From assembly GCA_028751875.1 (NCBI GenBank), contig CM054141.1, forward strand, positions 73,921,780 through 73,985,779: 64,000 bases of DNA. Direction: 5' to 3'. Positions 26,639-64,000 of this stretch are shown piece by piece. The translations under genes were made by a program, and so were the position numbers. The DNA comes from Rapana venosa. Its lineage: Eukaryota > Mollusca > Gastropoda > Neogastropoda > Muricidae. How positions within the stretch are numbered: the first letter of the stretch is position 1; each line of letters begins with the position of its first letter. The notes under the pieces were generated by a model, which had not been told where the DNA came from, did no database searches, and saw only the letters and a program-made list of their open reading frames with translations.

Positions 26639-27400
26639 TTTGACTTATTAAAATGCGTGAGATGGGTACAATTGTTACAATGTGTGAGCGTGCGTTTGCG
26701 CGTGCGCGAGCGACTGTTTGTGAATGTGCGGACGTACGGGATTTAATAGTGCGCACATGAGAAAAAGTGAATTTTGTTGGGGTGGGGTTTGTGGTGGCTG
26801 AGTATTGATGATTTGTGGATGCTTTTTATCTCATGATGGGTGGTGCTGATGTTGGACAGTGTGTGTGTGTTTTAAATATTATGTTTTTAAATGTTTATGT
26901 TTTTATGTATGGCGAGTCACCAGCGGATTTCTCTGTCTCTTTGAGGTAATAAACGCTTTTGATTTTGAATTTGAATTTGTATGTGTGTGCTTGGGGATGT
27001 AAATTGCTTTTGCATTATCTACTAAGTCTGCTATTAATATTTGTCTCGTCTAGTTTACTAGGCGGCGCCTGTGTTCTGTCCCTGTGTTGTTACTTTCCCA
27101 TAAAAAAAAACAAAAAACTTGTGATGAATTTGTTGACGTTTCTTTCCGTTAGCTAACATTATATTTTCTTGGTTTTTCTCCTTTACATTAGGAAGGGGGG
27201 GAGGGGGTTGTTTGGTTGTTTTGTGTTGTTGTTGGGTGTGGGTTTTTTTTTGTTTTTTTTTGTGGGGGTGGGGGTGGGTGGGGGTGGGGGGGCGATTATT
27301 TGGTTGTCCCCTCTTCCTTGTTGTTGTTGCTGCTTTTTATTTGGTTCATGGATTCTTTGTATTTTTTTGTTGTTGTTTCTGTGGGGTTTTTTGTTAGTTT
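26638..27400 (+). repeat. Second copy of the 10334-11040 module
   Basis: It matches 10334-11040 through the alternating GC stretch, AATAAA at 26948 with the TTGAATT tail, and the G-rich run at 27195-27290. This copy seems less error-prone than the first. It joins LINE A sequence at about 27403. Confidence 0.85.
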
Positions 27401-27402
27401 TG

Positions 27403-28270
27403 TAGTCTTCAGTGCGTCCGCCCACCTTGCGTTCCAGTCTCCTGGATATCAAGATGTCTTTCTTATTCACCTTATCGATGATGCCCTGTAGTTGATTGTA
27501 GAATTCCTCTAACGACTTCATCATCGTGATCCGTTGTTGGTGCGTAGCTTGAATCACTGTGATGTTTGAATGGGCTGCCCTGAGGCGGATGGCCATAAGC
27601 CGCTGTTTACTGGGTAGTATCCTATTAACCGAGTTCTTGATGTTCTTGTTGACAAGCATGCCTACGCCATTAATATGTTTGTCCTGCTCTCCGCTATAGT
27701 AGAGCATATGTCCCTCGTCAGTATGGTTTCACCGTGCTCTTTCCATCTGACCTCACAGAGACCTACCAGATGCCAGGTGTACCTGTCCAGCTCGTATAGC
27801 AGTTCTTGGAGTTTGCCTGTTTGGGCCAGACTTTGACTTTTCCACGTTGCGATGGTGATGTAGTCCCTTCCTCTGATCTTTTTGTAGGGTTCCACCAGTA
27901 GCACATTTGGGCGCCTCCGCCCTGGTGGCAGACGGAAGGCGTGATCCTTGTTGATCCGGGCGGCGACCGTTCCGGTATATTCTTTATTGTTGTCCATTCC
28001 ATGTAGCGTGTCTTGGGCAAAAGTAGCCTGCGGCGCCCATCCCTCTCCAGGCGTGATTTTGGGGTTGGGTTGACTCCCCACATGTCACAGGTGGTACCGG
28101 AGTCCATGGTTACCGGTAGCAGAGGACACCTCTGACCTGACCTGCTCCATGAATGGCAGGTGGCAAATGCGACAGGGTGTTTCTGCGGTACTGTACCTTG
28201 CAGTTCAGCACAGGGTTCACCATGTTTGTTGATGCTGACATGCCAACTGGTTTCATCTTCATGACGAATA
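27403..28270 (-). mobile_element. Partial second copy of LINE A 5' third
   Basis: The minus strand encodes the LINE A N-terminal region and endonuclease up to the GDWNAK motif, where it is cut at about 27403. Blocks include WNVK-like, CEVRWKEHGE near 27735 and an NKKDIL block near 27455. The rest of LINE A (reverse transcriptase) is absent. It corresponds to 19010-19900. Confidence 0.85.
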
Positions 28271-28285
28271 GGATGTTTTCACCTT

Positions 28286-28455
28286 CACCTGTCCAAATGA
28301 AGCAATGTGACCTTCACCTGTCCAAATGAAGCAATGTGACCTTCACCTGTCCAAATGAAGCAATGTGACCTTCACCTGTCCAAATGAAGCAATGTGACCT
28401 TCACCTGTCCAAATGAAGCAATGTGACCTTCACCTGTCCAAATGAAGCAATGTGA
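28286..28455. repeat. 29-bp minisatellite, 6 near-perfect units
   Basis: Same unit as at 19915-20100, here with clean 29-bp periodicity (for example 28286, 28315). Confidence 0.97.
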
Positions 28456-28492
28456 CGAAACACTGAAAGTAGGCCCTGTTGCCACCGGAAGA

Positions 28493-28663
28493 GAGTGGAG
28501 AGAGAGAGAGAGAGAGAGAGAGTGTGTGTGTGTGTGTGTGTGTGTGAGTGTGTGTGTGTGTGAGTGAGTGTGTGTGTGAGTGAGTGTGTGTGTGAGTGAG
28601 TGTGTGTGTGAGTGAGTGTGTGTGTGAGTGAGTGTGTGTACTGTGTGGTGTGTGTGTGTGAGT

Positions 28664-28694
<31 letters not shown>

Positions 28695-29010
28695 GTGAGT
28701 GTTGAGTGAGTGAGTGTGTGTGTACTGTGGTGTGTGTGTGAGTGAGTGAGTGTGTGTGTGTGAGTGAGTGTGAGAGTGTGTTGTGTGTGTGTGTGTTGTG
28801 GAGAGAGAGAGTGTGTGTGTGTGAGTGTGAGTGTGGTGTGTGTGTGTGTGAGTGGTGTGTGTGTGTGTGAGTGGTGAGTGGTGTGTGATTGTAGTGTGGT
28901 GAGTAGTGTTGTGTGTGTGTGTGTGGTGTGTGATGAGTGTGGTGATGTAGTGTATGTGTGAGTGAGTGAGTGCTGTGTGTCGTGAGAGTGAGTGAGTGTT
29001 GTGTGTGTGT
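28493..29010. repeat. (GT)n / (GAGT)n microsatellite region
   Basis: Counterpart of 20135-20715. Confidence 0.95.
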
Positions 29011-29025
29011 GTGTGTGCTGTGAAG

Positions 29026-29215
29026 GATAGATAATTTCACTCAGTACTTATAAGCCCAACACCTGAGTCAAAGTGTAGCTGTAAAATTTTGTACTTGAAT
29101 TGGTTTGTATTTTCGGTCCCAAAAAAAACAAACAAAACCCCCCCCCCAAAAAGTTTATTCTTTCCCCTTAAAAAAAATTTAAATTTAAAAACTAATCAAA
29201 TAAAAAGCAACTCCA
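29026..29215. repeat. Second occurrence of the 20716-20924 module
   Basis: It matches 20716-20924 and leads into the LINE B copy as in the first region. Confidence 0.8.
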
Positions 29216-31440
29216 AAGAAGGACTTTCTTGTGATCCGGGCGACTGGAATGCCAAACGGCCTGACGCTTATGCCCAATGGCCGGGGCAGTAGGCCCGTTT
29301 TGGCGTGGAAAACACAAATGATAGAGGTTCAATTTTTGGGAAATTCGCAGCACCCCACTCTTACTGTTCCCAAACACCTTATACCCCACAAGACATAAAG
29401 AAGAACGACTGGCACTCACCAAAGGAAAAACTAACCAGTTTGCTACTTTTGGGCCCCCAAACAAATTAAGTCGAGCATCAAAAAAGCCCAGACAAGAAGT
29501 TTCCCTGGCGCTGTACGGCAGTGACCCGACAGGGTATCTGACCCTACAGTCAAGCTAAGACCAAGAACCAGAAGAAAAACCCCCGTTGCGGTTAAACATG
29601 GAAAAGCTGAAGGACCCCATCGCAAAATCTTTAAAGCTGAGATGGGGGCAGTTTTGCAGCATTGAATTTCCTCCAAGATGACATAACAACCCCGAGACCT
29701 TCACAAGACCTTTCAGGGGACAGCGCTGGGACCCTTTGGGGAAAGAGAGAAAAAAAACCCAACCGGGGGTTCCAACGATATTCGGGACCTGTGCGACCAA
29801 ACGTGGGGGCAAAACCCATGAAAACAAAACCCCGAAACGGCCGAAGATTTAGAACATAAACAGTAAATAAAGAAAAAGATGCTGGGCCTGGGGAACTGGA
29901 TGTCAGAAAAATGCCCCAAAGGTTGAGAAGGCAATGGCGAAAGAGACAGCAAAGAGCGTACCAGACCATAAAGGTTAACCCAAATCCCAGCAGCCAAAGA
30001 CCTCCGTTTTTGAAGACAAAAAGGGGTCACCCCTTACAAGACGCCACTATTATGAAGAGATGGACAAATATTAAGCCCTGTACACTCAACTGAAGGTGAC
30101 CCAACAAACTTCACGAGCAAGACCCCAACCAAAAACCCTGAAAGCCACAGGGCTGGAGGAAGAGGTGAAGAACAGTAAGACCCCGAAAGGGGCAAGTCAC
30201 CGGGGAATTGACAACACCCCGGCGAGCTCATCAAAAAGGGAGGCCCAGAGATAAACGGGGCATTAAAATCATTCCCAAACGATCTGGCCCAGCAAAAGGG
30301 GCCCTGAACAGGGGCCCCCAACCATCATATTCCATTTCCCAAAGAAGGGAGACCTAAAAAGGGCCCAAAATAACAGAACAACGTCTGAAAAGCCCCAAGA
30401 AGTTACACCATTCCCTTGAAAAATTAAAAACCCAAGCAGAAAAATCCATCAAAGAACAGGCAGGAAGACCGGGGTCGAAGACGCCCCAACAACCCACCAA
30501 ACTATAAAACATCCCCCCAAATCCACCCCAGCTCTACCAACTTCATTGACTTCAAGAAGGCCTTCGCCCGAGGTGGCAAAAAGCTTTTGGGGGCAAGTCA
30601 TGGGGAACTAAGTCTCAAACGAGACTGATTCAATCATCCCAGGGCTGTAGACAGCTCCCACAGTGCAGTCCTCAGGGGAAAATCGGGATCTTCCGACTTC
30701 ATGAGTTCGAAAAGGCGCTATCCCCCTTTTTCCGTTCCTGGAGACACAGCAGAGGCCCTTTGGCTTCAGACACAATCCATAGGAGGAAGGCAGTCTGCAA
30801 TCTTGTTGCGAGTATGTGTGTCAGGCGTAGGAAGAACTAGGGATTGCAACCAGAGGATGCAATGGTGTGGAGATGGGTGTGATGATCCTAGTGAACAGTC
30901 AACTCCCGAGTGAGTGAGTGGCGAGATAGAGATGGGGGTACTTGTATTTGGAGAGTGCAGTAAGTGGCGGCATGAGGAGTGTGAAGAGCTTGTGTTGACT
31001 CTCTGTGTGGGGAAAGTGTGGAGAGTCGACCCAGAGTGTGGTGTTTGTGTATGATGATCTTGTTGTACAGTGGAGCAGGGAAATTGTTGGGATGAGTGGT
31101 GTGGCTTCAAGCCTTGAGATGAGTGTCAGTGGAGTTGAATGACGTTAGAGGCAAACGGACTAGCTGGAGCAGATTGAGGTGGCGGGGAAACAAGAACCAT
31201 TGCTGATGTGTAAGTGTGTTATGTGTGTTTGGCCGAGAGAACAACTAACAGCTTATAAGCCCAACCTGAGTGAAATGGTTATGCTGTATAGGATGTAGAA
31301 CTTGAAGTTGTATGCTCGATAACCAAAGAAGACACCAACACACCCCCAAACGTCTAAATTACTTTCCCTAAAAAATTTAAAGGTACAACTACATCTCCGT
31401 GCGGGATCCCAAGGTTCCGCAGGATGAGTGAGGAGGAGAA
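29216..31440 (+). mobile_element. LINE B second copy, homopolymer-smeared
   Basis: Blocks of LINE B follow in the same order as 20925-23460: GDWNAK-like at 29235, PGADIGSDHD-like near 29500, NFIDFKK-like near 30540. Nearly every line has expanded or lost A, C and G runs, so no frame is open for long. From about 30780 the sequence becomes a mix of LINE B and GT-repeat sequence, and 31245-31390 is the module of 20716-20890. I take this to be poor consensus, not biology. Confidence 0.75.
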
Positions 31441-34330
31441 ATAAATATGCAGCATCCATATTGTCAGCAAAGAATAGGGCACATTTTGAAATGAAAGGGC
31501 CAGAGTTGGAAAAATGATCATTCGTCTTATCTGCGTTGTTTTCCATAAAGTACAACACCTGGAAAAAAAGTACAGGTAATTTTGTTTACAGCCAAGAGTT
31601 GGGAACCAGCTGCACCGAAGTTTGCTGCCTTGTATCTGTTTCAAAGCAACTCATATTCAAAGAGCCAAATCTTGGTTGGACCACATCACCATTTTGAAGT
31701 TGGTTTCAGCTTCAAACTCTTGCCCGCCATTGCCTGCTGGTTAATGCTATTTACCACACGAGGAGCTAAAACACTCGTTTTGGTTGTTTGTTGTAACTTC
31801 ATAAGTCTAGCCCTCAAACTCTGCTTTCAACAGTTACACCGGATTTAGTGCAGTTTTTGCCTTGCTTTGTATTTGATGGATACAAAGCCATCCAACCAGG
31901 GCGATCAATACAGGTCTTTTGCTGACTAACTGCACAATCAGAAATCTCTCTCCTGTTGTTTATTTCATCCGCGCAAACGCGTGCATTTGAACCTTTATTT
32001 TTTCACACTGAAATGTATCTTTGCGTTGGATGTATCCCTTCAAAGCCAAGGTTGTCATCCAAACATCCTTGAATTTACAGCAGGCCCCCAGAATTGATGC
32101 CCTCATGCTGGGATGTAAAGGGGAAAAACTCTGAGAACGTTCCCCTTGAAAGTGAAAGTTGGCTGCACACTGGTAATAAAAAATCACTCTTTTTTGTTTT
32201 TAAATCTTAATAACTGCACTAAAAGGCTTCATGTGATTCCCGAACAAATTTGGTAGGTTTGAAATTTAATTTTTCAGCAAACACTGTACCCCTTCAGTCC
32301 TTTGTTGTCTGCTAGCTTCCTTAGCCCAATATGCATGCGCGGGGTCAACGCTGTAGGAATACAGGCAAACCTCATTTGATGATTATTTCCAACTTTCTCA
32401 TGACTACCTGGTATTGCTCTATGTCCTCAATCCCATAAACAAGTGCACAGTCCATTTTTTCATACTTTAAAAAAATCTATGAAAATAACCAACATTTTTT
32501 TGGGGACTCCCACTCTATAGAAAATTCTACATGACCCCCAAATTACTACTGGTGTGGAGTGAGCCTTATGGCATTGGTCAGGATCATTTTAGATTTTTAT
32601 TGACTTTGTTCTTGTTTGTAGTTGCTTTCTCCTTGAGAAAAAGCACTTCTTAGCAATCACAATAGACCTCTGACACATTTTTACAAGCCAAAGTCAGTTT
32701 TCACAAACATTTATGATCCTGGAGAGGTGTCTCATTTTCCAAAGCTTTAAGAAATCTTTACAAAGCAAGCAAACCCTCTAGATCTATACTGACAGGGCCC
32801 CCAGCATCCCCACAGGGTTGGGGGCGTAAATAGTATATCTTGTGACTTTTTGTTTTCTGGGTTCAACACCTTGTCATTGTGAGTTAGAGTGATGTGTGAA
32901 AGGGAAATCATTTTTTCTTTCTGAATGTCCATATAATAGATTATATGCATTAACCATTCTGTGACAATCTTGTGTTGGCAAAAGCATCAGATTATCACAG
33001 TATTATAGTGCCTCACAAAAAAAGCTGAACCAAATGAAGCGAAACAAACCAAAAAGAAAAAACCCAACAGCGCCCGCTCCCCACCCCCCCCAAATCTAGG
33101 ACAAAAAAGAAACGGGCAATATTGTGCAAGTAGGACAAAAAAACCCCCACCCAGATGACAGACAGAAACAAAGAGATGTAAAAGTGACAGAAGAGAGTTT
33201 AAGAACACAATAACCAGAATGTGGGAACACAGGCACTGCATCATGAAGTTTATTCAGAAACAAAGAGAGAAGTAAAATAAGAATTGGCTTTCTTCCCTCA
33301 TTTCAGTTGTTTGCGGTGAATGGGACTGAAATAAATCTGGGTGACAATGACCACATCAGTAGACAATGACATGACAGCTGGTGACAATGACCACAGAAGA
33401 CCATGAGATGACAGCAGGTGACAATGAATACAGAAAACGAGATGGCAGCTGGTGACAATGAACATAAAGGACATGACAGCTGGTGACAATGAACAGAGAA
33501 GATAATGAAATGACAGCTGGTGACAATGACCACATTACACTGTGAGACGATAGATGGTGACAATGAACACAGTAAACTTGCCAGGAACTTTTTGGAAAAA
33601 AAAAATCAGGAATTTTTGCATTAATATATTCCTGTCATTTTGGGCCTCCTATCTGACAGAGATGAAAAAACAGACACAAAACAAACCACTACCCGTATGT
33701 GGTTTCCTGCCTTTATACCAATGTACACCCACAAAACTAGTCACCAGATCACCAGTACGAAAAAACTATACACACAGTATGGGTGTGTTAGAAATTATTA
33801 GTATTACTATCATTATTACAATTATTGTTTATAGCCCTTTAACCAGAGGCAACATAAATGAACAAATCTGAAAAAACATTACCATGTACAATTTCTTAAA
33901 GAATCATATTAACAGATACAGTGACAGTCTATACAGTCATCCATACTAACAAAATATTCAGTAACAATCCACATAATCATTATAAGGACTGTCAATGACA
34001 ATTTATACTAACAACATATTCAGTGACAGTTCATATAGCCATCCATATTGACATCAGATCTTGTAACAATCCATATAACAATCATTCTGAGGACTGTCAG
34101 TGACAATTCATTTAACATTCCATATCGACAACAGATCCAAATAATAATCCACATGATAATCAATATCATACAAAGGGCTGTAAATGATAATCCATATTCA
34201 CAACAGATTCAGTGACAATGGATATAACAATCCATATAAACAACAGGTTCAGCAATGTCTGCATGGGGGTGCACTGTCTTTTAAAAAAAATAGAATGCAC
34301 TGTTGTCTTTTTGCCATCAGCATCAAGACC
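31440..34330. other. Second copy of 23511-26330
   Basis: Long near-identical blocks align with 23511-26330, including both tandem-repeat zones. No gene is recognised. Confidence 0.85.
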
Positions 34331-34800
34331 AGACTGATGTTTCCTGGTCAAGTCCATACTTTTGCATGCATGTGAAACATGAACCATAACAACAGAGATT
34401 GAAAGGAGGATACAGGCAATGGAGACGAGATGCTTTTACAGAATTCTTGGTATCTCAAACAGAGATCACATAACTAACAAAACTAGAATAGAAAATGCCT
34501 TCAGGCCATATGAAGAGCTCCTGACTTCAGAGAAAAAACTGTAAACTGAAGTGTTATGGGCACACCACAAGAACATGTGGACTGGCCAAGACTGTCCTAC
34601 AGGGAACAGTACAAGGAGGGAGACGAAGATAACAGGAAGACAACATCAGAGAGAGGACTGGCCTTGAGTGGAATAACTCGTGAAGGAAAACTGAAAACCG
34701 CAAGAAGAGGAAGCTGGATGCAAAATCTTCACTGCTGCCCCAATCCAATCCTATTGTTTAGAGCCCTGCCGACCACAGAGGCCATATCAGGGCTGTCACC
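34330..34800 (+). mobile_element. LINE C-terminus (LINE K, copy 2, intact end)
   Basis: Translation in three frames gives the C-terminal blocks of a LINE polymerase: RCFYRILGIS-like near 34430, AFRPYEELLTS near 34500-34530, TCGLAKTVLQGT near 34575-34605, GRQ-like and EWTGLEWN near 34660-34680. It ends near 34800. Because it reads through the point at which copy 1 is cut, it shows that 26638 is a breakpoint. Confidence 0.75.
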
Positions 34801-49559: not shown

Positions 49560-50006
49560 TTATTTTGAGTGGGCTGTGTTTTCTGTGTCAGGGATGACAG
49601 GCTGAGGGGAGTGGGCTGTGTTTTCTGCTCTCAAGACGACAGGCTGCGCTGTGTTTTCTGTGTCAGGGATGACAGGCTGCGCTGTGTTTTCTGCTCTCAA
49701 GACGACAGGCTGCGCTGTGTTTTCTGCTCTCAAGACGACAGGCTGCGCTGTGTTTTCTGCTCTCAAGACGACAGGCTGCGCTGTGTTTTCTGCTCTCAAG
49801 ACGACAGGCTGTCTCTGAGCCAGCCCAGAGTGTAGAGTTGCTGCAGCTGAGGAGGGTGAGGAGGGGGTGTTTTTCCTGCGCCACGACACCACCATGGAGG
49901 GGTTGACTACAAACACCTGGCCCATGGCCGCTGAGGGAGCACCCCACACCCACACCTGCTTCCACACTGGTATCAACAACACCTGCACACTCACTACTAC
50001 TGACAC
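49560..50006 (-). CDS. Possible exon with 11-residue repeats
   Basis: A 148-codon open frame on the minus strand. The upstream part (near 49960-49840) is not low complexity, including MGQVFVVNPSMVVSWRRKN. The downstream part is an in-frame repeat of QPVVLRAENTA encoded by a 33-bp tandem array. The array is also open on the other strand, so openness alone proves little. It lies on the same strand as the better-supported exons at 54.8 and 58.2 kb and could be part of the same gene or intronic. I do not recognise the protein. Confidence 0.3.
   Translation of the reverse strand: MSVVVSVQVLLIPVWKQVWVWGAPSAAMGQVFVVNPSMVVSWRRKNTPSSPSSAAATLHSGLAQRQPVVLRAENTAQPVVLRAENTAQPVVLRAENTAQPVVLRAENTAQPVIPDTENTAQPVVLRAENTAHSPQPVIPDTENTAHSK
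49575..49815. repeat. 33-bp minisatellite, about 7 units
   Basis: Unit CGCTGTGTTTTCTGCTCTCA followed by AGACGACAGGCTG. The first units differ (CTGTGTCAGGGATGACAGG variant). The period is a multiple of three. Confidence 0.95.
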
Positions 50007-50026
50007 CTACACTTCACTCACATTAC

Positions 50027-50158
50027 CACGATGCCTGTAGCAGTTCCAGGCTGCGCATGACATCATCCGGGGCTGGGGAAGAAGAGGAGGTGGAGCCATG
50101 CGGGACAGAGGATGTGATGGGAAAGCGGGGGACACTGGCCCCCCACACTGCCTCCTGT
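50027..50158 (-). CDS. Candidate internal exon (exon E)
   Basis: The minus strand has a fair 3' splice site (CCCGTTGCTGCAG before 50158) and a GTAATG donor after 50027. Between them one frame stays open and reads EAVWGASVPRFPITSSVPHG, then a serine run, then PDDVMRSLELLQASW, which has the look of a conserved helix. The exon would start in phase 2 and end in phase 0. The protein is not recognised. Alternative frames are also open because of GC content, so this is tentative. Confidence 0.35.
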
Positions 50159-50554
50159 CTGCAGCAACGGGAACCAGCAGCAGCACTGCAGCTACTTTAT
50201 TGTGCGGGACATCAAAGGGCTGCTGCTGTTCCTTGCTGCAGGAGTCGCAAGCAACATGGACACTGGAGATGTTGGCACATAGTCCGTGCACACTGTATAC
50301 CTGGAGCACCCTTCATGCCAAACTCAGTCACACAGTCCATTTCCGTGTCGTCACACAGTCCAGTTCTACTTTCACAGAGGTCACAGAATGAACGCCGTCA
50401 CTTCCCCATTCCCCTCCTCCTTCTTGCTGGTGACAGACGTTCCATCTTCACTGAAGTCAAACTGCAAATGGGAGATTCCGATTTATGCCAAGGCCACAGA
50501 TTCTGGGGCCCTGTGCACTGTGTTCTGTGCAAAAGCAGGCTTCACTGAGGCATG

Positions 50555-50690
50555 TGCAGCAGGCAGGAACTGTTGCCAGCAGGCAGGAAGTGTTGCCGGC
50601 AGGGAGGGAAGTGTTGCCACAGCAGGAAGTGTTGCCAGCAGGCAGGGAAGTGTTTTCCAGCAGGCAGGGAAGTGCTCACAATGGAGGTGA
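50555..50690. repeat. About 20-bp tandem repeat
   Basis: Units of AGGCAGGAAGTGTTGCCAGC, five to six copies with variation. Confidence 0.85.
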
Positions 50691-50805
50691 TGGGTAATGT
50701 CAAGGGGGTGAAGATCCTGCAGCTGTGGTGACTGTCTGACTCCGGTCTTGATACTGACTTTTCAATGCATTTGGGTCTCCTTATCACAACCAAATGTCCC
50801 CCTCA

Positions 50806-51020
50806 CACCGACCTTTCTCACAGTCTCTGCCCCCTTGGTGCAGTGAGGGAAAAATTTGGCTGTTGGACGTGTCCTTGGCCTGAATGACAGGGACAGGGGA
50901 CTGGGCCTTGAAAGGAGTCCAGAAGGGGTGGTGAGAGCGAGAGGGCTGGGGAGGCCCCACAGTGGACAAGACGGTGGTCCCAGAAGATTTGCAGCAAGCT
51001 GAGGACAAGAGAGGAGGACA
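50806..51020 (-). CDS. Candidate internal exon (exon D)
   Basis: Minus strand: a strong polypyrimidine tract and CAG (CCCTCCCCCTCCCTTTCAG) precede 51020, with a second CAG after 22 bases at 50999. The frame reads SSACCKSSGTTVLSTVGPPQ and continues through PFWTPFKAQSPVPVIQAKD to DCEK. A GTGTGAGG donor near 50806-50811 would leave phase 2, which fits exon E. The protein is not recognised and the other frames are also open, so the call rests on splice signals and phase. Confidence 0.4.
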
Positions 51021-51149
51021 CTGAAAAGGGAGGGGGAGGGCAGGGGCCAGAGGTCAAGTCAGCCTGGTCTGGCCAGGACAGTGGAATCGCAGGAACTCTG
51101 CTCTGCCAGATCACAGGGGCGGTTGTGCCGCAAAGGGGAGGGGAAAGGG

Positions 51150-51580
51150 CAGGGTGTCCATGCGCGCCATGTTGGCCGCTTCCAGCAAGGCCTCGAAGCC
51201 CAGCGGTTGCGAGGGCTGTCCTCGCCCCCCCCGCTCCCTGCCACTGCCGAAACGCCCACCGTCTTCCCCCCGCCCCGTCCTCCCCGGTCAGCAGTCTGCT
51301 GCCCATGCTTTTCCTCCTGGCCTGCTGGCTCTTCAGCGCCGTTTTGTCTCGCCCTTCCCTCCTCTGTCAGGAACACGGGCCTCCCGGGTGCTGACTTTGA
51401 TGGTTTTTTGCCGAGGAGGGGTCCCTGTCCTCTCCACAGGCTGCTTGTGGTCTGGCAGGGAGGAATGTCCAGGGCTTCAGCCAGGGGGGTGGGCAAGCGA
51501 GGAAGCTTAGAATTCTTCTTGGTTTTGATCACACAAACCCCCTGCCGTGTTCTGACAGATCTTTGGTCACAGACCCTCAC
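51150..51580 (-). CDS. Candidate exon (exon C), with a probable frameshift
   Basis: Minus strand: GTTGCTGTGGTTTTCAG precedes 51580. The frame reads VRVCDQRSVRTRQGVCVIKT and continues through KLPRLPTPLAEALDIPPCQ and a polar, basic region. Near 51290, in a G-rich run, the likely reading shifts by one base into a frame ending GFEALLEAANMARMDTLPFP, which looks like a conserved helix. A sequencing indel in the G run would explain this. The family is not recognised. The 3' boundary is uncertain. Confidence 0.4.
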
Positions 51581-51629
51581 CTGAAAACCACAGCAACAAT
51601 GTCACACACTCCCACAGGGGCAAAAACTA

Positions 51630-52541
51630 TTGGCATCAAGCTGACATTTCACTTTACAGGGGCAAATCTATTGGGATCAATGCTGACATACACTTACAGG
51701 GGGAAATCTGTTTGGCCATCAATGCTGACCATACACCTACAGGGGCAAATCTATTGGCATCAATGCGACATACACTCTACAGGAGCAAATCATTGGCATC
51801 AATGCTGACATACACTCTACAGGGGCAAATCTGTTGGCATCAATTGCTGACATACACTCTACAGGGGCAAATCTGTTGGCATCAATTCTGACATTACACT
51901 CTACAGGGGCAAATCTGTTGGCATCAATGCTGACATACACTCTACAGGGGCAAATCGTTGGCATCAATGCTGACATACACTCTACAGGGGGAAATCTTGG
52001 GATCATGCTGGCATAAAACTCTACAGGGCAAATCTATTGGCATCAATGTGACATACACTTTACCCGGGGGAAATTATTGGCAGCAAAGCTGACATACACA
52101 CTACAGGGCAAAATCTAATGGGATCAATGCTGACATACACTTACAGGGGCAAATCTGTTGGCATCAATGCTGACATACACTTTACAGGGGGAAATCTGTT
52201 GGGATCAATGCTGACATTAAAACTTTACAGGGGCAAATCTATTGGGAGCAATTTCTGACATAAACCCATTACAGGCAAAAACTATTGATATCAATGCTGA
52301 CATACACTTTACAGGGGCAAATCTATTGGCAGCAATGCTGACATACACTTTACAGGGCCCAAACTTTGGCAGCAATGCTGACATACACTTTACAGGGGGA
52401 AATCTATTGCATCAATGCTGACATAACACTTTACAGGGGAAATCTGTTGGCATCAATGCTGACATACACTTTACAGGGGGAAATCTGTTGGCAAGCAATG
52501 CTGACATACACTTACCAGGGGCAAATCTCCTGGCAGCAATG
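51630..52541. repeat. 41-bp minisatellite, about 22 units
   Basis: Unit ACAGGGGCAAATCTGTTGGC followed by ATCAATGCTGACATACACTCT (starts at 51903 and 51944, for example). Units carry scattered indels. It lies just upstream of candidate exon C on the minus strand, so probably in an intron. Confidence 0.95.
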
Positions 52542-54142
52542 CTGTCTGCATTTATGTATACAGATAAACATTAAAAAAACAGTAGACAAACTTGAGTGAT
52601 TTCAGACAGTTTTTCTATAGAATACATTTCCCGGGGCTCTTGGGGCATACACTTCTCCCTCACCTGCCGGCCATGTTCATGTTCCACATGTCCTTACAGT
52701 TTTATTTATTTTCTCTTCCTCTTCTCTTTGGCCTATCAGGAGTTTTCTGGAGGCTGTTTTCCCCTCTGAGAAGTCGATTTCTCTACAAACACTTGTGCAT
52801 TGCTCGCTGCACAAAATCCAGCCAGCAAGCAGTGCTGCAGAAAATGCTCGCCTCCAGACTACAGCTGGACCTCATCCTCTTCATCGCAACTTTAATACAG
52901 CTTTGAATTATACTCCCAAATAATCAATGTGTGAGAATGCTAAACAGGATGCAAAACATGAATTGTGAGAATGGAAAATACAAGAAAGAAAAAGAAAGAA
53001 TGAGCTTTTAAAAAAAGAAAAGAAATGAAAAAAGGAGAGACAAAGAGAGAAAAACAAAGGATTTGGGAAAAGACAGTGGTGGAACACTTACAGGGGAAAC
53101 TCCAGAAGCAAAGTAAGTATTCAGATCTTGGCCACTTCTGGGAGCAATTAACAGAATACTTATGATGTGAAAACACAGAAATGTGTTGGCTTTTTAATGC
53201 AATGTTTGTTTGGCAAGTGTGTGAGCTGACAGTGATATTCTGTTGCGTATTTAAAATACTACTTACTAGGTATTCAAATAAGAAAACATAGTTTTTACCA
53301 AAGAAAAAAATAAATAAATAAACTCATATATATATATTATATTATAGATACATATGAGGGATCCATCAGTCTCAAAAAAGGATGAGTTTGCGTCTAGGCG
53401 TCCATTTTTCTCCAGAGAGCAAGCCTGGGTAAGCGATGGAGGCAAGCTGTTACCCATGCAGGACAAACCCCCTCCTCTCCACGTCGCTGAATGGTTGCAT
53501 TGAAAGCAATCGCCGACAGACATGGTCCCAGTGCCGTCGCGGGAGCTGCTGCCAGAACGACGCTGTCTACAGCTCTGAAGGTCCGACCCACCTCCACAAC
53601 CTTGTCTTAACACGACACCTGTATGCATGCTGGGGGTTGGGTTTCTTTGTCATCCTCTCCTACCGCCACACAATAGCCTACTCTTCCAAAAGGCAGAACC
53701 GGTTTTATTGTGTGTGCAAGATGTTCTGCATGCGTTCGCACACGGGGCCTTTGCTTAGTCTCATCCAAAGGATGTGTGTGTGTGTGTTCTATTAGTATAA
53801 TATATTGGTATTGGTGTGTGCACGGCACACAGACACACACACATACAGATATATATATATATATACACACATACAGTGTTGATTCTAGGATTTCAAAATA
53901 AGGGGCCCAAGGGCCCCCTAAAATGAAAAAAAGGGGGCTTTGCCCCCCCCCCCCCTCAAAAAAAGGGGACAAGCAGTATATGCTTACAGTACCCTCAGAA
54001 CTCTTAGTTTCTGCTATTTTTTCAAGGAAGAGAAACAAAACAAACAAGCAGATATGTGGGCAGAAAGGATTAAATATTCACTTTAAATGTTGCAGTTAAT
54101 ATGCAGTAAGCACTTGTGACACAAAAAAAGAGAAAAAAAAAA
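52542..54142. other. Mostly unassigned; one GC-richer block
   Basis: A plus-strand CT-rich tract followed by CAG near 52738 resembles an acceptor, but no supported exon follows. The block 53350-53720 is GC-richer, open in several frames, and looks like a dispersed repeat; I cannot name it. Short TA and GT/AC runs lie at 53325-53345, 53775-53790 and 53828-53875. Confidence 0.45.
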
Positions 54143-54816: not shown

Positions 54817-54904
54817 CTTCCTGCCTTCCCATTCTGACGGCGTAGTCATGGTCAGACTGTGGGATCACATAGATCTCTCTGTACTGGGCCTCCTCATCCG
54901 TATT
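54817..54904 (-). CDS. Internal exon B of an unrecognised host gene
   Basis: The minus strand shows GTGTGTGTGCAG directly before the exon and GAAG|GTGAGA after it, both good splice signals. The 88-nt exon is open in one frame: NTDEEAQYREIYVIPQSDHD then YAVRMGRQE. It starts in phase 0 and ends in phase 1. It is not low complexity, and the wobble bases look codon-like. Phase 0 matches the end of exon A at 58186. The intron side of its acceptor is a long tandem array built from this same splice site. The gene family is not recognised. Confidence 0.7.
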
Positions 54905-54918
54905 CTGCACACACACAT
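54905..54918 (-). promoter_or_regulatory. 3' splice site of exon B
   Basis: The minus strand reads (GT)n then GCAG immediately before AATACGGATG. The GT run takes the place of the usual pyrimidine tract. Confidence 0.65.
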
Positions 54919-55261
54919 CAAACACCTGTATTATACACACATCAAACACCTGTATTATACACACATCAAACACCTGTATTCTGACAACACAACACACACA
55001 CATCAAACACCTGTATTCTGCACACACACAACACATCAAACACCTGTATTCTGCACACACACACACACATCAAAACACCTGTATTCTGCACACACACATC
55101 AAACACCTGTATTCTGCACACACACACAAAACACACACACATCAAACACCTGTATTCTGCACAACACCCACACTACTCACAAATACAAAAACACCTCTAT
55201 TCTGCACACACACACACATCAAACACCTGTATTCTGCACAACCACCTACACACATTAAACA

Positions 55262-55460
55262 TGCTTCTACTCACTCTAACCCTGTAAATCTCCCTCCTCA
55301 CATCAACACTTATCTGCACCTCACAACACTGACCACACACACAAAATCAAACCTACTCCACAAACATTTAAAAACGCTGGGATTACTGTACACACCCACA
55401 CTAGTCAACCTGACTGACCATTCCAGACATCCACGAAACAATTCATCAACACCACTGTAA
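55262..55460. other. Mixed sequence: array plus LINE
   Basis: The bases look like a blend of the acceptor array and the LINE sequence at 55803-56000 (for example ATGCTTCTACTCACTCTAAC against ATGTTTCTACTTGCTTCTG). It is probably a consensus error. Confidence 0.6.
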
Positions 55461-55802
55461 TTGAAATCCCACAGACACATTCAAACACCTGTATTCTGCA
55501 CACAACCACACATCAACACCAATGTATCTGCTCACACAACACACATCAAAACACCTGTATATCACAACACACAATCAAACACCTGTATTCTCACACACAC
55601 ACATCAAACACCTGTATTCTGCACACCACACACCACACACATATCAAACACCTGTATCTGCACACACACACACATCAAACACCCGTATTTGCACAACACA
55701 TCAAAACATCTGATATGCACACACACACATCAAACACCCGTATTCTGCACACACACACACATCAAACACTGTATTCTGCACAAACCACCCTAGTTCCACC
55801 TT

Positions 55803-57165
55803 AAACATGTTTCTACTTGCTTCTGATCAGTGAAAATCCCCTCCTCACTCTACTTGATTTAAATCTGCACCCTTTCGACACTATTGACCACTCTACCCTT
55901 TCTCTCCCGTCTTCAAAAAACGTTTTGGCATTACTGGTACAGCCCTACCGGTTTAGGTCATACCTGACTGACCCGATTCCAGACAGTCACAGAAACAAGA
56001 TTCAGTCAGTCCCTGCCAGACGGGAATGTGGAGCCCGCAGGGATCATTTTCTGGCCCTGTTCTTTACTCTCAAACACGCTCCACTGTCACATAAAATTTA
56101 AAAACGTCATCACCTTTTATGCAGATGACTCTCAGATTCTAAGCAGTGACAGTCCTGAAAATCTGTCTTCTCTTTTGATAAATATGGCCTACTGCTTTCA
56201 AGATATCCAAAACTGGATGATAGAGAACAAGTTACAACTAAATGCTGAAAAACTGAAGCCATGCTTGTAGGGACCAAAAACAAACTCCTTTCCATTACAA
56301 CAGCTTCAATAAAATTTTCGGAAAGGGCATCAGTCCCTCTATCCACTGCTGAAAAGTATTAGGGGTCATTATTGACAACACACTCTCATGCAAAAATTCA
56401 TCACCCAAAACCTCCCAGCCCCTGCTTCTATCAATTACGGCGTATTAGTGCAATTCAAAAGTCCCTGTCCACAGATGCAAAAATCAAAACTCGTGGCATC
56501 TCTCATTCTTTCATGTCTGGACTATTGCCCAAATTTTCTTTTGGCTGGTCTGCCAGCATCATCTATTCCACTCCCCTTTAACGTAATTTAAAACTCTGCA
56601 GCTCGACTAGTCCTCAGAAAGAAAAAATCTGAGCACATTACCCCTCTCTTGCGATCTCTCCACTGGCTGGGCCCGTGCCACAAAGAAAAACGACAAGATC
56701 AGTACCCTCTTTACAAATGTCTCCACAAAACAGCACCCTCCTACCTCTGTGAATGTCTTTCCACCTGTACACCCTTCTCGTTCCCTTCACTCTGCTGCAG
56801 ATTACTTGTGCTTACAAATACCTAGATTCAGCCAGTCCACTGTTGGCCGTCGCTCTTTCTCTGTTTTGGTCCATTGATTTGGAATGGCCTCTCTAATCTC
56901 TCTTCGCCAAAGACCTTCTTGTGACACTTTAAATCTGGCCTCAAGACATATTTTTTTCAAACCTAAAATTCTCTCCTGTTTCATTTCATAGCTATCCCTG
57001 CTTTTCAACAGCCAAAGATTTCCATCACCCTGCCAAAGTGTATACGGGGGTGTTTTGTGTGTGTGCTTTGGACTTGTTAGAACTATTACTTGCTATTGGG
57101 TTTCATGACTGTGTAAAAATGAGTTGAGGCAAGCGCTTTGATTTGTCTGTGCAAGATACAGCGTA
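55803..57165 (+). mobile_element. L2/CR1-like LINE, 5'-truncated (copy 2)
   Basis: It aligns with 60278-61630 of the element at 59191. Reverse transcriptase blocks include a TLLDLNLHPFDTIDH stretch near 55845-55895, a degenerate GxxxGIIFWPC block near 56025-56060, FYADDSQ near 56115-56135 and DIQNWMIENKLQLNAEKLK near 56205-56255. The thumb and C-terminal blocks follow in broken frames. The 3' end has AAGCGCTTTGATTTGTCTGT. It lies in the intron between exons A and B, in opposite orientation to the gene. Confidence 0.85.
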
Positions 57166-57192
57166 TGTTAGTTCCAGATATTTATTCACGTT

Positions 57193-58185
57193 GTCTGTCC
57201 ACAGGACATCACCTGTCTGTTCGTCCACAGACTCACCTGTCTGTCTGTCCATAGACTACCATGTATGTCTGTCCAGAGTGTCCATTCTGTCTGTCCACAA
57301 GTGTACTACTGCTGTCTGTGTGTAGTGGTGTGTGACTACATGTATGTTGTCCAGATGACTCACCATGTATGTCTGTCTGCAGTGACTCACCATGCTGTTG
57401 TCATGCAGTGACTCACATGTAGTCTGCTTCCCGGGACTCACATGTCGTTGTCTGTCGCAGTGACTCACCATGTCTGTCTGTCCGCGGTACTCACTGTAGT
57501 CTGCCCGCAGTGATCACCATTTGTCAGTCTGTCCCAGTGACTCCGTCTGTCTGCCACAGTGACTCACACTCTGCTCCCAGCGATACATGTCTGTCTGCCC
57601 ACAGTGACTCACCATGTATGTTGCCCCGTGACTCGCCATGTCTGTCCCACAGTGACTCACATGTTGCCACAGTGACTCACCATGTTGTCCACAGTGACTC
57701 ACCATGTCTGTCCACAGTGACTCACCCTGTCTGTCTGTCCACAGTGACTCACCCTGTCTGTCTGTCCACAGTGACTCACCCTGTCTGTCTGTCCACAGTG
57801 ACTCACCATGTCTGTCTGTCCACAGTGACTCACCCTGTCTGTCTGTCCACAGTGACTCACCATGTCTGTCTGTCTGTCCACAGTGACTCTCCATGTATGT
57901 CTGTCCACAGTGACTCACCCTGTCTGTCTGTCCACAGTGACTCACCCTGTCTGTCTGTCCACAGTGACTCACCATGTCTGTCTGTCCACAGTGACTCACC
58001 ATGTCTGTCTGTCCACAGTGACTCACCCTGTCTGTCTGTCCACAGTGACTCACCCTGTCTGTCTGTCCACAGTGACTCACCATGTCTGTCTGTCCACAGT
58101 GACTCACCATGTCTGTCTGTCCACAGTGACTCACCATGTCTGGTCCACAGTGACTCACCATGTCTGTCTGTCCACAGTGACTCAC
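57193..58185 (-). repeat. Tandem array of the exon A donor, 27-bp unit
   Basis: Minus-strand units read GTGAGTCACTGTGGACAGAC plus AGACAGG or AGACATG. Most units restate the perfect 5' splice site (A)GG|GTGAGT found at the true exon edge. About 20 units between 57640 and 58185 are nearly perfect; to 57193 they become degraded. Units are nine codons (R/M-V-S-H-C-G-Q-T-D) and stop-free. One 31-bp unit near 57870-57895 shifts the frame. Confidence 0.95.
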
Positions 58186-58188
58186 CCT
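58180..58188 (-). promoter_or_regulatory. 5' splice site of exon A
   Basis: The minus strand reads AGG|GTGAGT, a perfect match at intron positions +1 to +6. It is the exon-proximal member of the donor array. Confidence 0.7.
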
Positions 58189-58352
58189 GTCATCAGAATC
58201 AGCGTGCTGAGAACTGCTGTCTTCAGACAGTTCCACAGTGGCTTCCTCCTCCACACTCTCCTCCTCCTGCTCCCCCAGCAGGTCAGCTGTCACTGCCAGG
58301 TCAGGACTTGGTTCTGGTATTGACCAACGATATTTACCATCAACCAGGTTGT
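58186..58352 (-). CDS. Exon A of an unrecognised host gene
   Basis: The minus strand is open: NLVDGKYRWSIPEPSPDLAV, then TADLLGEQEEESVEEEATVE, then LSEDSSSQHADSDDR. The acidic, serine-rich end resembles a linker of a regulatory or membrane-associated protein, but I do not recognise the family. A TGA stop lies in frame a few bases upstream of 58359, so the exon must begin after it; AG at 58353-58354 is possible but lacks a good pyrimidine tract, so the start is uncertain. The 3' edge (AGG|GTGAGT, phase 0) is strong and agrees in phase with exon B. Confidence 0.65.
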
Positions 58353-59190
58353 CTTCCACAGATCAATGTCTATCCAATTATGATAGATATAAGCATAGTG
58401 AATGAATATGTCTTAACCTCAACAGTGTGTGTCATAATGAACTATTTCAACCATGTGTAGTATAGTGATTGAAAAATATTAACAGTTTACAGTGATTACT
58501 GTCATAATGTTCAATATATACAATCAGCAATGTGAACTGTCATAATAAATAACACTTACCAAGAATGGTGCATCCTGTCATAATGAATGCTTTGATCTGC
58601 ACCCCTTTTGGGATGAAATATAAAACCCCTCTTCTCACTATTCACTCTCTAATTCAGACAACACAAAACAAAGTCAAATCAGTCTTTCAAATATTAATTT
58701 CATACCCATACACCATTCACTCAAACATACACAACTACAAACTCATCTGCAAAATATTGCAACTACTGCCCTTTCAACATCAAGAATGAAAATAAACACA
58801 ATTTATATGACAATATCCTTCCTCACAATGATGCCTCAAATTAACAAATCTTTCAGTCAACAAAACCATGTTGGCAATGGTGTAAACACCTCTACATAAT
58901 CAGCATATAATACTGCTGCTGGATTCATTCGCCTCAATCATAATTATCGATACTGAATCATCTTAAAGCAAGAGGGGACATCATTTTTAATTTTTAATCA
59001 TAAATGGAAAATGATAGCAGAAAAGGCAAGTCAGAAATCAAGGTCTGATATCTATCTCAAATGACAGGATATAATATGTGCTGGTGAGACACTGATGAGC
59101 TTAGCCTGATATATCATGCTTTACCCAATCAATAAATGCCCTGCCACACACAAAAACCAATTGAATACAGTTAAGACCATATGATAACAT
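58353..59190. other. AT-rich, no recognised gene
   Basis: No supported feature. If the minus-strand gene continues, this is intron or 5' region. Confidence 0.5.
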
Positions 59191-59931
59191 GCTTCATTTA
59201 ATCTTGTTACATCTGTTTCTGTCACTGACGAACTGCATTCTGATCATTCCGCCATTCTTTTCCACCTCAACATCACAAAACCTGTCAGAAAGAAGAAATA
59301 TGTTACTCGTCGCAATCTTAAGGCATTAGACATTCATACTTTCTCTTCACAAGCTTCCGAACGTTTTTCACAAACCTCTGGCCACACTAACCTCTCTGAA
59401 TACTATAACACTGTTCTCCGCCAATTGCTTGATGAGCATGCACCTCCTACTGACCATCTCCTACCTGACAGACCCAGTGCGCCATGGTATACCCAAGACA
59501 TCCTGATAGCGAAGCGCAAACGCCGGCAACTAGAACGGCAGTGGCGGAAATCAAAAACCGAAATCAACAAACAGATTTTCCGAAAACAAATGAACAAAGT
59601 CAAACACTTAATCCATTCAGCAAAGACAGAATACTACTCTTCCCAAATTCTCTGCACTACATCCATAAAATCTCTTTTTTCCCTCACCTCAAATCTCCTT
59701 GGGTCTGCAAAAAACATCTCCTCTGCCTACCACCCACAGCCTGTCTGAACTTCCATCCATATTTTCTGCCTTCTTTTCAGACAAAGTTCGAAACATACGC
59801 TCCAGACTGGATCAGACTCATTTCCAGCCTGCACCTCCTGATCCCCAGTTCACTGGCACTCCTCTCTTTTCCTTCTGTTCCACAAGTGAAAAAGAAATCA
59901 TGACAATTCTGAAGGAAATGACTATAAAATC

Positions 59932-60900
59932 ATGCGACTTGATCCCATACCTGCTCCTGTTTTCTCACAATGCCTTCCACAACTTGTACCTATTATCACT
60001 AAAATAGTAAACTCATCTCTTCTGTCAGGACATTTTCCACAAGCTCTTAAAACCGCAATAGTCACACCTCTACTGAAAAAGCACGACCTTGATCCCAACA
60101 TTCTGAAGAATTATAGACCTGTCTCAAACTTACCCTTTGTCTCTAAAGTACTAGAAAAAGTTGTTCTCAAACAGCTCAACAGTCACCTTCATTCCAATGA
60201 TCTCCTTCCCCCTTTTCAATCTGCCTATCGCCCCAACCACAGCACCGAAACCACCCTAGTCCATACTTTAGATACACTTCTACTTGCTTCTGATGCAGGA
60301 AAAGTCTCCCTCCTCACTCTTCTTGACTTATCTGCAGCCTTCGACACTATAGATCACTCAATTCTTCTTTCTCGCCTCCAAAATACGTTTAGTATTAATG
60401 GCACAGCCCTCACCTGGTTTACTTCATACCTCACAGACAGATTCCAGAAAGTTATTGTAAACAAAATTCAATCAAAATCTGTCAAAATGGAATGTGGAGT
60501 CCCACAGGGATCAGTCCTGGGCCCCGTTCTCTTTACTCTCTACACTGCTCCACTCTCACATATAATAAACAACCACCATATTGATCATCATTTCTATGCC
60601 GATGACACTCAGCTTCAGTGCAGTGATACTGTTGAAAACTTGCCTTCCCTCCTGACAAATATGTCCTACTGCCTTCAAGACATTCAAAACTGGATGACTC
60701 GGAACAAGTTACAACTTAATGCCAATAAAACCGAAGCCATGCTCATAGGGACCCAACATAAACTTTCCTCCATCACAACAACATCAATAGAATTCGGCAG
60801 TGCGTCAGTTCCTTTGTCCAACTCTGTAAAGTATCCAGGTGTAGTTCTTGACAACACACTCTCTATGAAAAAATTCATCACCCAGACCTGCCAGTCTTGA
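59932..60900 (+). pseudogene. LINE reverse transcriptase core, open for 322 codons
   Basis: Motifs in order: NYRPVSNLPFVSKVLEKVV (60110-60165), PPFQSAYRPNHSTET (60210-60250), LLDLSAAFDTIDHS (60320-60365), GVPQGSVLGPVLFTLY (60496-60543), the catalytic YADD (60595-60606), and NWMTRNKLQLNANKTEAML (60690-60745). All three catalytic aspartates are present, so the palm domain is intact. It is cut at 60900 by a stop from a frame change. The enzyme copies element RNA at the nicked target site. The upstream endonuclease is absent, so it could not act alone. Confidence 0.85.
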
Positions 60901-61487
60901 TACTATCAACTACGGCGCATAAGCGCGATTCGCAAGTATCTGCCCACTGATGCAACTTCCAAGCTCGTCACATCTCTCATTCTTTCACGTTTAGACGACT
61001 GTAATTCTCTTTTGGCTGGCCTACCAGCATCATCCATCCATTCTCTCAACGCATACAAACTCTGCAGCTCGACTGGTCCTAAGAAAGAAAAAATCTGAAC
61101 ACATCACTCCTCTTCTGCGATCTCTTCACAGGCTGCCAGTCTCACAAAGACTGAAGTATAAGATCAATACCCTCTGTTTCAAATGTCTCCACAAATCTGC
61201 ACCCTCTTATCTCTGTAACTGTCTTCACCTGTACACTCCATCCTGTTCCCTTCATTCAGCCGCAGATACTTTGTGCTTTCGAACACCCAGATTCAAACAA
61301 ACCACTGTTGGCTGTCGATCTTTTTCTGTTTCTGGTCCGTCCATGTGGAATAACCTCCCTCTTTCACTTCGCCAAAAACCTTCACTTCATACCTTCAAAT
61401 CCAGCCTCAAAACACACTTATTTCCTACCTGACACTTTCCCCTCATATCCGTCTCTACTTTTCAACAGCATCCTTCATCTCCTCTCG

Positions 61488-61519
<32 letters not shown>

Positions 61520-61520
61520 T
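61488..61520. repeat. (GTGC)n microsatellite
   Basis: About eight GTGC/GCGT units inside the 3' untranslated part of the LINE. Confidence 0.95.
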
Positions 61521-61767
61521 GTACATACACGTGCATAAATTTGAAATATGTTCTTTATTATATTTGAGGAAAGTTGCATGCGCGTAAATGATTTGAGTGC
61601 AAGCGCTTCGATTTGTTTGTTTTACAAGATTCGGCGCTATATAAATTCCATATATCATTATTATTATTATTATAACATCATCAAGCTGGTGGGGAGACTA
61701 TACCAAACTTATGCACACCAAAAATATGTTGCGTAATCATGAACATTCACATTATTATAGTCTATCC

Positions 61768-62240: not shown

Positions 62241-63406
62241 CGTTCCCCAGCTTTATACCCTGGGGGTCACCCAGAACATGCCACACTCTGACTCGCTCAT
62301 CCCAACTGGGAATCACTGTGAGATAGGAAGTACACTGGATGAGAAGTTTGCATCATCATCAATGCCTTTGTGCCTTATTGGCATGTAGGGCAGCAACAAA
62401 TGTTCTCCACTCCTGTCTGTCCTGGGCCAGCTTCTGAATGGTTCCCCAGGTATGTTGGAAGGTCTTCAGCTCTGTTTCGACAGTCCGACGCCAAGTATTC
62501 TTGAGTCGTCCTTGTTTGCGTTTTCCCTCTGGTGGCCAGTGGAGGGCTGTTCGGGCAATGTTTCCCTGTTCCCGATGGCAGATATGCCCTATCCATCTCC
62601 ATCGCCTATGCATGATGATGGTGTCAATGCTTTCCTGGTTGCAACGGGCAAAAAGTTCTTGGTTGGAGATGGTCTCAGGCCAGAAGATGCACAAGATTCT
62701 TCTGAGATTCTTTGTGTGGAATGTGGATAGTTTGTCAAGGTCACTCTCAGTCATCCTCCAGCACTCCGAGCCGTACAAAAGGGTGGAAAGTAAAACAGCT
62801 CTGGTATAGTCTTAGTTTGGTTCTGGTGCTGTACTGGGACGTTTTCCACACATTGTTCAGTTTTTCTGTAAGCATTTCTTGCTTTGCTAATCGGTTCTTG
62901 ATGTCCGCTGCCTGCTCCGCCGTCATGCCTAACAGTGCCCCGGGGTACGTGAACTCTTCGTTGTTGGTAAATCTTCTCCATTCACTGTGACCGGTGAGGG
63001 GTTCTGAACGTTCAGAGTCATCACCTCTGTCTTGTTCGACTGATTTCAGGCCTACTTGCTGTGCGAAAGTGTTGAGACGGGATGTCTTCTCTTGAATGTG
63101 ATGGTGGGTATTTTGAGAGCATCCCAGATCTTTCGGCAAAATTTAGGTCTTCAAGCATTGGGAAGGGGGGTCCATCTGATGCCCCGTGATGGTCAGCTGT
63201 TGTCTGTCTCATTCACCCAATCAATTGTCAGGTTGAAGAGTAGTGCTGACATGGGGCAGCCTTGTCTGACGCCGGTTTGTACACTGAAACTGGTTTTGCT
63301 GTTTCCTACTCTGCACGTGAAGTTGTTGTAGAAGCTCTTAATGATTTGGATAATCTCCTGTGGAATTCCATATGCTCGGAGTATGCGCCATACACTTTCT
63401 CGATGA

Positions 63407-63417
63407 ATGCTGTCAAA
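63407..63417. repeat. Target-site duplication, left copy
   Basis: ATGCTGTCAAA, repeated exactly at 63705-63715. Confidence 0.9.
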
Positions 63418-63704
63418 GGTGGTGGTGTCCCATAACCTATAAGGTCGTAGGGGAGCGAGGCGTCAGAGACCTCACTTTTCTAGGGCCAGCGTATTGAGGG
63501 CGGCGCCCATCTCCTCTCCCTCGCTGCTTTACCTTCCCTGACCCTAAAGAGGACAGGTACCCATTTACAGCTGGGTGAACTGGGGGAACTGTACTGAAGC
63601 CAAGGCGCGCAAACGGTCACCCATCCAACTGGTAACCACGCTCGACGCTGCTTAACTTGGCTGGGGGAAAGCGAGTGCTCTGACCACTGAGCTATCCCGT
63701 CCCT
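63418..63704 (-). mobile_element. Second copy of the tRNA/5S SINE, inside LINE J
   Basis: The minus strand reads AGGGACGGGATAGCTCAGTG from 63704, then the 5S-like block, the body and GGTTATGGGAC, then an (ACC)n tail. It is nearly identical to 61768-62045. The 11-bp direct repeats at either side and the interrupted LINE codons show that it inserted after LINE J. Confidence 0.92.
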
Positions 63705-63715
63705 ATGCTGTCAAA
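63705..63715. repeat. Target-site duplication, right copy
   Basis: ATGCTGTCAAA, the partner of 63407-63417. Confidence 0.9.
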
Positions 63716-64000
63716 AGCTTTTTCAAAATCTATGAAGTTGATATACAGCTGTCTCTGCCATTCCGTGCACTGTTCGATGATGTTGCTAAGGATGAAGATC
63801 TGGTCTATGCATCTTCTTCCTGGTGTAAAACCTGCCTGTTCCTTTCTGAGTTGTTGGTCCACTGCCTCTGAGATTCGTCCGATGATGATCTTTGCCAGAA
63901 TCTGGCTGGGAACAGATAGCAGAGTGATTCCTCTCCAGTTGTTACAATTGTTCAGGGCTCCTTTCTTTGGGATCTTCACGATGACTCCTTCTGTCCAATC

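Follow-up and report, generated by a model that had tools for sequence, protein, structure and literature searches.

A tandem array of predicted splice donors at an exon-intron boundary of an IRF-like gene in the gastropod Rapana venosa

An IRF-like gene and the minisatellites in its introns

The window, a 64-kb stretch of the 2.28-Gb Rapana venosa assembly (C8:73921780-73985779), carries on its minus strand three predicted exons, A, B and D, of an IRF-like gene. An upstream exon on the same strand (L003:2817-3407) encodes the second half of an IRF DNA-binding domain: it matches positions 56-104 of the 105 in PF00605 with 35.6 bits (cut-off 27), and also IRF1 and IRF2 chains in the PDB. Searching the genome with PF00605 returned four IRF-domain matches, only one of them at this locus. 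Exon A (58186-58352) has an open frame that runs from VEDNLV to HADSDDR and ends in ...GATGACAGG|gtgagt in phase 0; its phase 1 start suits the upstream IRF exon and its phase 0 end suits exon B. The acceptor of exon A is most likely AG|ACAAC at 58353, a weak site, with two more in-phase acceptors possible inside the exon; the choice is uncertain because the start of the exon, roughly as far as EEEATVEL, has no conserved counterpart in the Babylonia areolata protein P0007. A similarity between this start and the repeat unit described below was reached by 2 of 500 shuffles and is too weak for use. Exon B (54817-54904) is 88 nt long, runs from phase 0 to phase 1 as NTDEEAQYREIYVIPQSDHDYAVRMGRQE, ends in the donor GGAAG|GTGAGA and aligns to NTDDDAQYREIYVIPQSDHDYAVRIERQ of P0007.

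The terminal coding exon, D (49560-51580, minus), is matched by P0007 and by P0008 of Nucella lapillus. Indels interrupt its frame in the window; in a second assembled copy of the locus it is open over 668 codons. It holds coding repeats of 33 bp and 20/21 bp (window 49615-49811 and 50557-50674), which read QPVVLRAENTA and NTSLPAG in the second copy. A short exon C was also considered (52545-52516, at the head of a 40/41-bp array) and dropped, since nothing stands in its place between B and D in P0007, P0009 or P0010 and its CTGGTAAGT donor is missing from the second copy.

The exon chain was compared with related proteins, which are database entries, many of them predicted; the species giving the closest ones are caenogastropods. 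With the IRF exon in front, the chain matched six proteins, aligned over 23-35% of the query. The final chain, made of the upstream IRF exon, A, B, the later rejected exon C (10 residues) and exon D from the second copy, matched P0007 at 1.4e-67 and eight proteins in all, the other seven at E values up to 0.01, in a search that scored the 7993 candidates with most words in common. P0007 has the order SEDSGSQHAESDDR-NTDDDAQYREIYVIPQSDHDYAVRIERQ-HGEGSVTKILSE, and its alignment therefore sets the end of exon A at 58186, the limits of exon B at 54904-54817 and the point where B meets D. Moreover, SD[DE]R|NTD is uninterrupted in four gastropod proteins: P0007 and P0009 (Babylonia), P0010 (Littorina saxatilis) and P0012 (Nucella lapillus). 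The repeat words SHCG, CGQT and ESLW, from the two open frames of the array that follows exon A, occur in none of 14 related proteins, four of which recognisably span the A|B junction, all from other species. Because these four proteins cross the junction without any repeat peptide, we place the end of exon A at 58186 and the array in the intron. An earlier sequence-only reading had exon A end in AGG|GTGAGT on the minus strand, and both the open frame and the SD[DE]R|NTD passage in the relatives bear this out. The comparisons thus support exon A as a real coding exon with the array starting at its predicted donor.

This array is a 27-bp minisatellite at 57192-58191 (minus), reported by TRF as 39.0 copies with 81% matches and a score of 1023. 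It takes in the last 6 nt of exon A, and its first GT is the exon A donor at 58185-58184. Between 57193 and 58360 the minus strand has 29 exact copies of GTGAGT, exon A's own counted. Nine stand in AGGGTGAGT and fourteen in ATGGTGAGT, so that 23 of the 29 are preceded by AGG or ATG, as the sequence-only reading had described; neither 9-mer occurs in the rest of the 64-kb window. Dinucleotide shuffles of the array (n=200) had a mean of 2.9 GTGAGT and a maximum of 7. The first 18 units, beside exon A (58185-57703), are nearly clean and differ chiefly in whether ATG or AGG precedes the donor; one has GAGAGT in the donor's place. Well-kept units read GACAGG, as at the end of exon A, or GACATG before GTGAGT.

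The two halves of the array are kept very differently. We counted 11 substitutions at 58191-57701, nine of them the T/G switch between ATG and AGG, together with 7 deletions and 4 insertions, whereas 57700-57193 has 37 substitutions and 76 indels (63 deletions and 13 insertions). The ragged half is probably sequence error, because the second assembled copy holds a clean far half. That copy lies about 91 kb away on the same strand; the far part of its array is clean at C8:73887910-73888754 (L012:6131-6975), with 24 intact GGTGAGT, and the exon-A side is ragged and then cut by a 500-N gap, so that exon A does not appear in that copy. Units of 23 and 31 bp also occur in the second array. The earlier estimate was of about 20 well-kept and perhaps 35 units in all, and the true array is probably better kept than had been supposed. 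The number of units is uncertain, because other duplicated parts of the window likewise show numerous gap openings when aligned.

Such segments, inverted and direct and with many indel differences, pair 1-2242 with 8380-10564 (N gap at 7874-8373) and 19001-26634 with 27396-34590. An example within the window has 114 gap openings against 74 mismatches, which suggests unpolished long-read sequence. On a larger scale, window positions -80000 to -22000 (L009-L020) copy 14000-58000, together with inverted pieces, and the duplicated locus may reflect unpurged haplotypes, misassembly or a real duplication.

The donor array makes up only the first 1 kb or so of the roughly 3.3-kb A-B intron, which the earlier reading had taken to consist of the array. 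From 5' to 3', the intron consists of the donor array, an antisense LINE fragment of about 1.4 kb and an acceptor-bearing array. The LINE fragment, apparently 5'-truncated and on the plus strand, occupies approximately 55785-57190 and fills the space between the two arrays; 55782-57012 aligns with a longer copy at 60248-61469 over 1257 positions at 75.9% identity. Without it, the intron would be little beyond two arrays meeting. Retroelement-like stretches also lie at window 59190-61700 (plus), with an RVT_1 match at 59890-60900 (126.6 bits), and at 62359-64000 (minus), which looks reverse transcriptase-like by eye.

The acceptor-bearing array (54905-55782, minus; TRF) has a unit of about 30-33 bp, TGTGTGTGTGCAG|AATACAGGTGTTTGA, and ends at the exon B acceptor. 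Many of its units are ragged, and the well-kept ones include the first five bases of exon B (AATAC). Counting the exon's own, CAGAATAC occurs 12 times in the window copy and 14 times in the second. A third array, of 40/41-bp units with the acceptor-like TTTGCCCCTGTAG or a variant of it, lies in the B-D intron (51614-52544, minus) and stops about 35 bp short of the exon D acceptor; it has 22.7 copies in the window and 49.9 in the second assembled copy, whether these are alleles or duplicates. The end of this array aligns to the unit with a score of 30, reached by none of 500 shuffles, a match that is partly the array itself because the aligned stretch starts inside the last unit.

Pairing strength and reading frame of the array donors

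Scored for pairing with U1, 24 of the 29 donors reach -9.2 kcal/mol or better. The nine AGG-type donors, exon A's own among them, each score -10.1 kcal/mol, fourteen ATG-type donors score -9.2 and one further unit scores -12.2; the other five are weaker (-5.6 to -7.1). Over the 7806 GT sites of the window, the best 1% starts at -9.0 kcal/mol, which places the 24 donors within about the top 1%. The genome has 20 U1 gene matches, 15 of them above the cut-off, and the two U1 genes inspected both have the canonical U1 5' end. The consensus at positions -3 to -1 of a 5' splice site is MAG, whereas the array has AGG or ATG there. Thus the sites, which had been called perfect and each strong for U1, are for the most part strong without being perfect.

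From fifteen of the 29 donors, exon A would join exon B in frame and without a stop. These are all of the first 11, over which the unit length is 27 bp except for one unit of 24 bp, and 4 of the other 18, part of which fall in the ragged half. In the computed joins, in-frame use of downstream donors is predicted to add VSHCGQTDM/R blocks. That the first 11 donors are all in frame could reflect selection, yet the second copy has units of 23 and 31 bp.

Donor arrays elsewhere in the genome and the minisatellite background

We then considered the genome at large with a pattern of three AGGTGAGT, 10-40 bp apart, and with the same pattern read backwards as the control. The pattern had 936 matches (486+450) against 891 (511+380) for the control, in raw counts that take in simple GT/GA repeats and score one array many times through overlapping matches; there is therefore no clear genome-wide excess of donor-motif arrays by raw count. 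Among the matches listed, the first 100 or so places, all on C1-C3, were grouped by reading into 18 loci. Nine with simple-looking (G/T/A-rich) or short units were put aside and the other nine were read.

At five of these nine loci the first donor, by reading, stands at the end of an open, exon-like frame that follows an acceptor, and two of the five exons score above a Pfam cut-off. One is an ankyrin-repeat exon (L042, 1500-1801, in C2:10022600-10024400; Pfam Ank, 47 bits) and the other a REJ-domain exon (L041, 29.3 bits). An I-set-like exon at L038 has 18.8 bits, short of the 23.7 cut-off, and found no match in a PDB search; the exons at L043, a short one, and L045 are backed by an open frame alone. 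At L038, L042 and L043 the unit visibly copies the last 10-17 nt of the exon. No exon was seen next to the donor arrays of L037, L039 and L040, and upstream of the array at L044 the sequence is mostly N. A Vps10-like assignment of L045, made by eye, was given up when Pfam and PDB searches lent it no support. A further donor array close to the window (C8:74093227-74093621, L021; window coordinate 171448-171842) has six 67-bp units, each with CAGGTAAGT, and is preceded by what may be a short exon, whose acceptor is good. Frame keeping was rejected as a general rule of donor arrays, whose spacings elsewhere include 35, 22 and 67 bp.

Long complex minisatellites make up 6.7% of the 264-kb neighbourhood of the locus and 9.6% (three arrays) of 21.6 kb of non-N sequence from other contigs, the latter drawn from four 10-kb stretches, one of them all N. 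At 7-10% of the sampled DNA, in samples that are small, some minisatellites will fall on splice sites by background, a simpler cause than competition among donors or a decoy role. Within the IRF-like gene, three of six predicted junctions (the IRF exon donor, the acceptors and donors of A and B, and the acceptor of D) have, by reading, a long complex minisatellite no more than 40 bp away. At a background of 7.5%, three or more of six has a post hoc P of 0.007, which hints at more than background.

Collectively, these loci show that such a donor array is not unique to the junction at exon A. Donor-like arrays often stand at real donors; it does not follow that donors are hot spots. A wider reading, which we think less likely than not, is that splice junctions are recurrent birthplaces of minisatellites in this gastropod lineage. 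Many genes (IRF-like, ankyrin-repeat, REJ-domain and I-set-like among them) would then carry self-copied donors or acceptors that supply alternative donors, steps in protein length and raw material for new introns. In that reading the IRF intron, with a donor array, an acceptor array and little but a LINE fragment between them, would be an extreme case.

Origin of the array and its likely role

Arrays of this kind are known from amphioxus, in the globins BflGb6 and BflGb9 and in Adh3, TnC and PGBD5, where minisatellite-like tandem duplications of an exon-intron boundary are called mirages. Passages of the two reports describe them at 5' or 3' boundaries, with splice signals in many units and length differences between haplotypes; in PGBD5 more than one boundary of the gene is affected, and the authors state that their data suggest regular splicing is undisturbed (PMC3087553, PMC3902484). 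The globin mirages have few long units, of 150-160 bp (6 and 3 copies in BflGb6), and the Adh3 units are 10-72 bp (PMC3087553, PMC3902484). The snail array is like them in spanning a real exon-intron boundary, as it starts 6 nt inside exon A, and in having a splice signal in its units, with 29 GTGAGT. It differs in lying in a gastropod, in an IRF-like gene, in having about 39 short units and in that both ends of one intron are affected.

A second likeness is the human ABCA7 intron-18 VNTR, with 25-bp units, about 12 to 427 in number, whose first GT is the exon-18 donor; retention of one unit is described, and skipping of exon 19 goes with length (PMC5954066, excerpts). In the snail, too, the exon donor supplies the array's first GT, but the ABCA7 units shift the frame and lie in a C-rich region, whereas the snail units, at 27 bp, keep it at first. 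Introns from tandem arrays were reportedly the subject of Zhuo et al. in 2007. In human segmental duplications, tandem repeats at exon-intron boundaries change introns and the choice of splice site, as part of one report describes (PMC2812944). Such works concern intron modification and gain, and the A-B intron is likened to them for its boundary repeats only. The openly licensed literature searched contained no report that we recognised of splice-junction arrays in molluscs. An abalone gene has a 27-bp intronic minisatellite, for which the excerpted text mentions no splice-site link (PMC6905558), and a Conus gene has simple repeats in its introns (PMC3862624, in part). The array in the snail IRF-like gene matches a class that is already known, from a few amphioxus genes and human ABCA7, but little studied.

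We therefore favour, as the probable explanation, a mirage-like minisatellite at a splice junction of a gastropod IRF1/2-like gene; it would be a tolerated side effect of a genome very rich in minisatellites and not a selected U1 decoy. A short stretch reaching from the end of exon A into the start of the intron would have been duplicated in tandem, by replication slippage or unequal exchange; amplification and homogenisation to about 39 copies would have followed, leaving most units with a donor equal or nearly equal to exon A's own. The 3' end of the A-B intron would have undergone the same process with its acceptor. Splicing would most likely use mainly the exon-proximal donor, as the proteins of the relatives and the amphioxus cases suggest, and occasional use of a downstream unit would insert VSHCGQTDM/R blocks. 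The earlier reading had proposed duplication of the donor region; the GACAGG and GACATG units, the start at the real donor and a similar layout at three to five other exons fit this proposal, although the donor may have given rise to the array or the array may have spread onto the donor.

Competition among the donors, which had likewise been proposed, is possible. Splicing would then use many units and yield IRF isoforms in a ladder, carrying from 0 to about 10 extra VSHCGQTDM/R blocks, and array length would tune the protein or its expression. The stop-free, in-frame series of the first 11 donors and the equal or nearly equal U1 strengths agree with such a ladder, as does the retention of one 25-bp ABCA7 unit in about 2 ± 1% of transcripts (PMC5954066, excerpts). 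The 14 related proteins of other species, four of them recognisably spanning the junction and none with the repeat words, and the irregular spacing of the other donor arrays argue against it, and we regard such a ladder as unlikely. The earlier reading had named decoys for U1 beside competition. Selection for the array as such a decoy or landing pad, by which more U1 would gather locally and either suppress premature polyadenylation or delay the splicing of an immune gene, has the weakest support among the functional readings and appears improbable to us: the strong pairing of most units and the retention of the motif in two assembled copies speak for it, but a young, homogenised array retains any motif without selection, and the triple AGGTGAGT is barely more frequent than its reverse.

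We give very little credence to a coding array, in which exon A would be expanded and the true donor would lie past the repeats; the exon A frame does run on for 282 codons without a stop, of which 59 belong to exon A, but any stop-free unit trivially keeps a repeat open, a 31-bp unit shifts the frame within the clean half, and the relatives pass directly from SD[DE]R to NTD. It is just as improbable that the array was inflated or invented in assembly, for which the noisy window with its indel-rich duplicated segments, the N gaps and the nearby second locus copy might speak, since in both assembled copies the donor array has the same neighbours, the LINE fragment and the acceptor array; the number of units and the ragged half are nonetheless in doubt.

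With dozens of near-identical donors in a row, nature has in effect set up a test of how the spliceosome decides between equal 5' splice sites, and a splice signal in about 39 copies poses the question of how a cell selects the right one. With several further cases in one snail genome, it would become testable across many genes how copy number relates to splicing and whether tandem duplication gives rise to introns; if splicing proves normal, the array is a measure of how much splicing tolerates. The locus itself, at C8:73.92-73.99 Mb of 75.02 Mb, lies about 1.1 Mb from the end of the contig, a subtelomeric position that could raise its minisatellite load.
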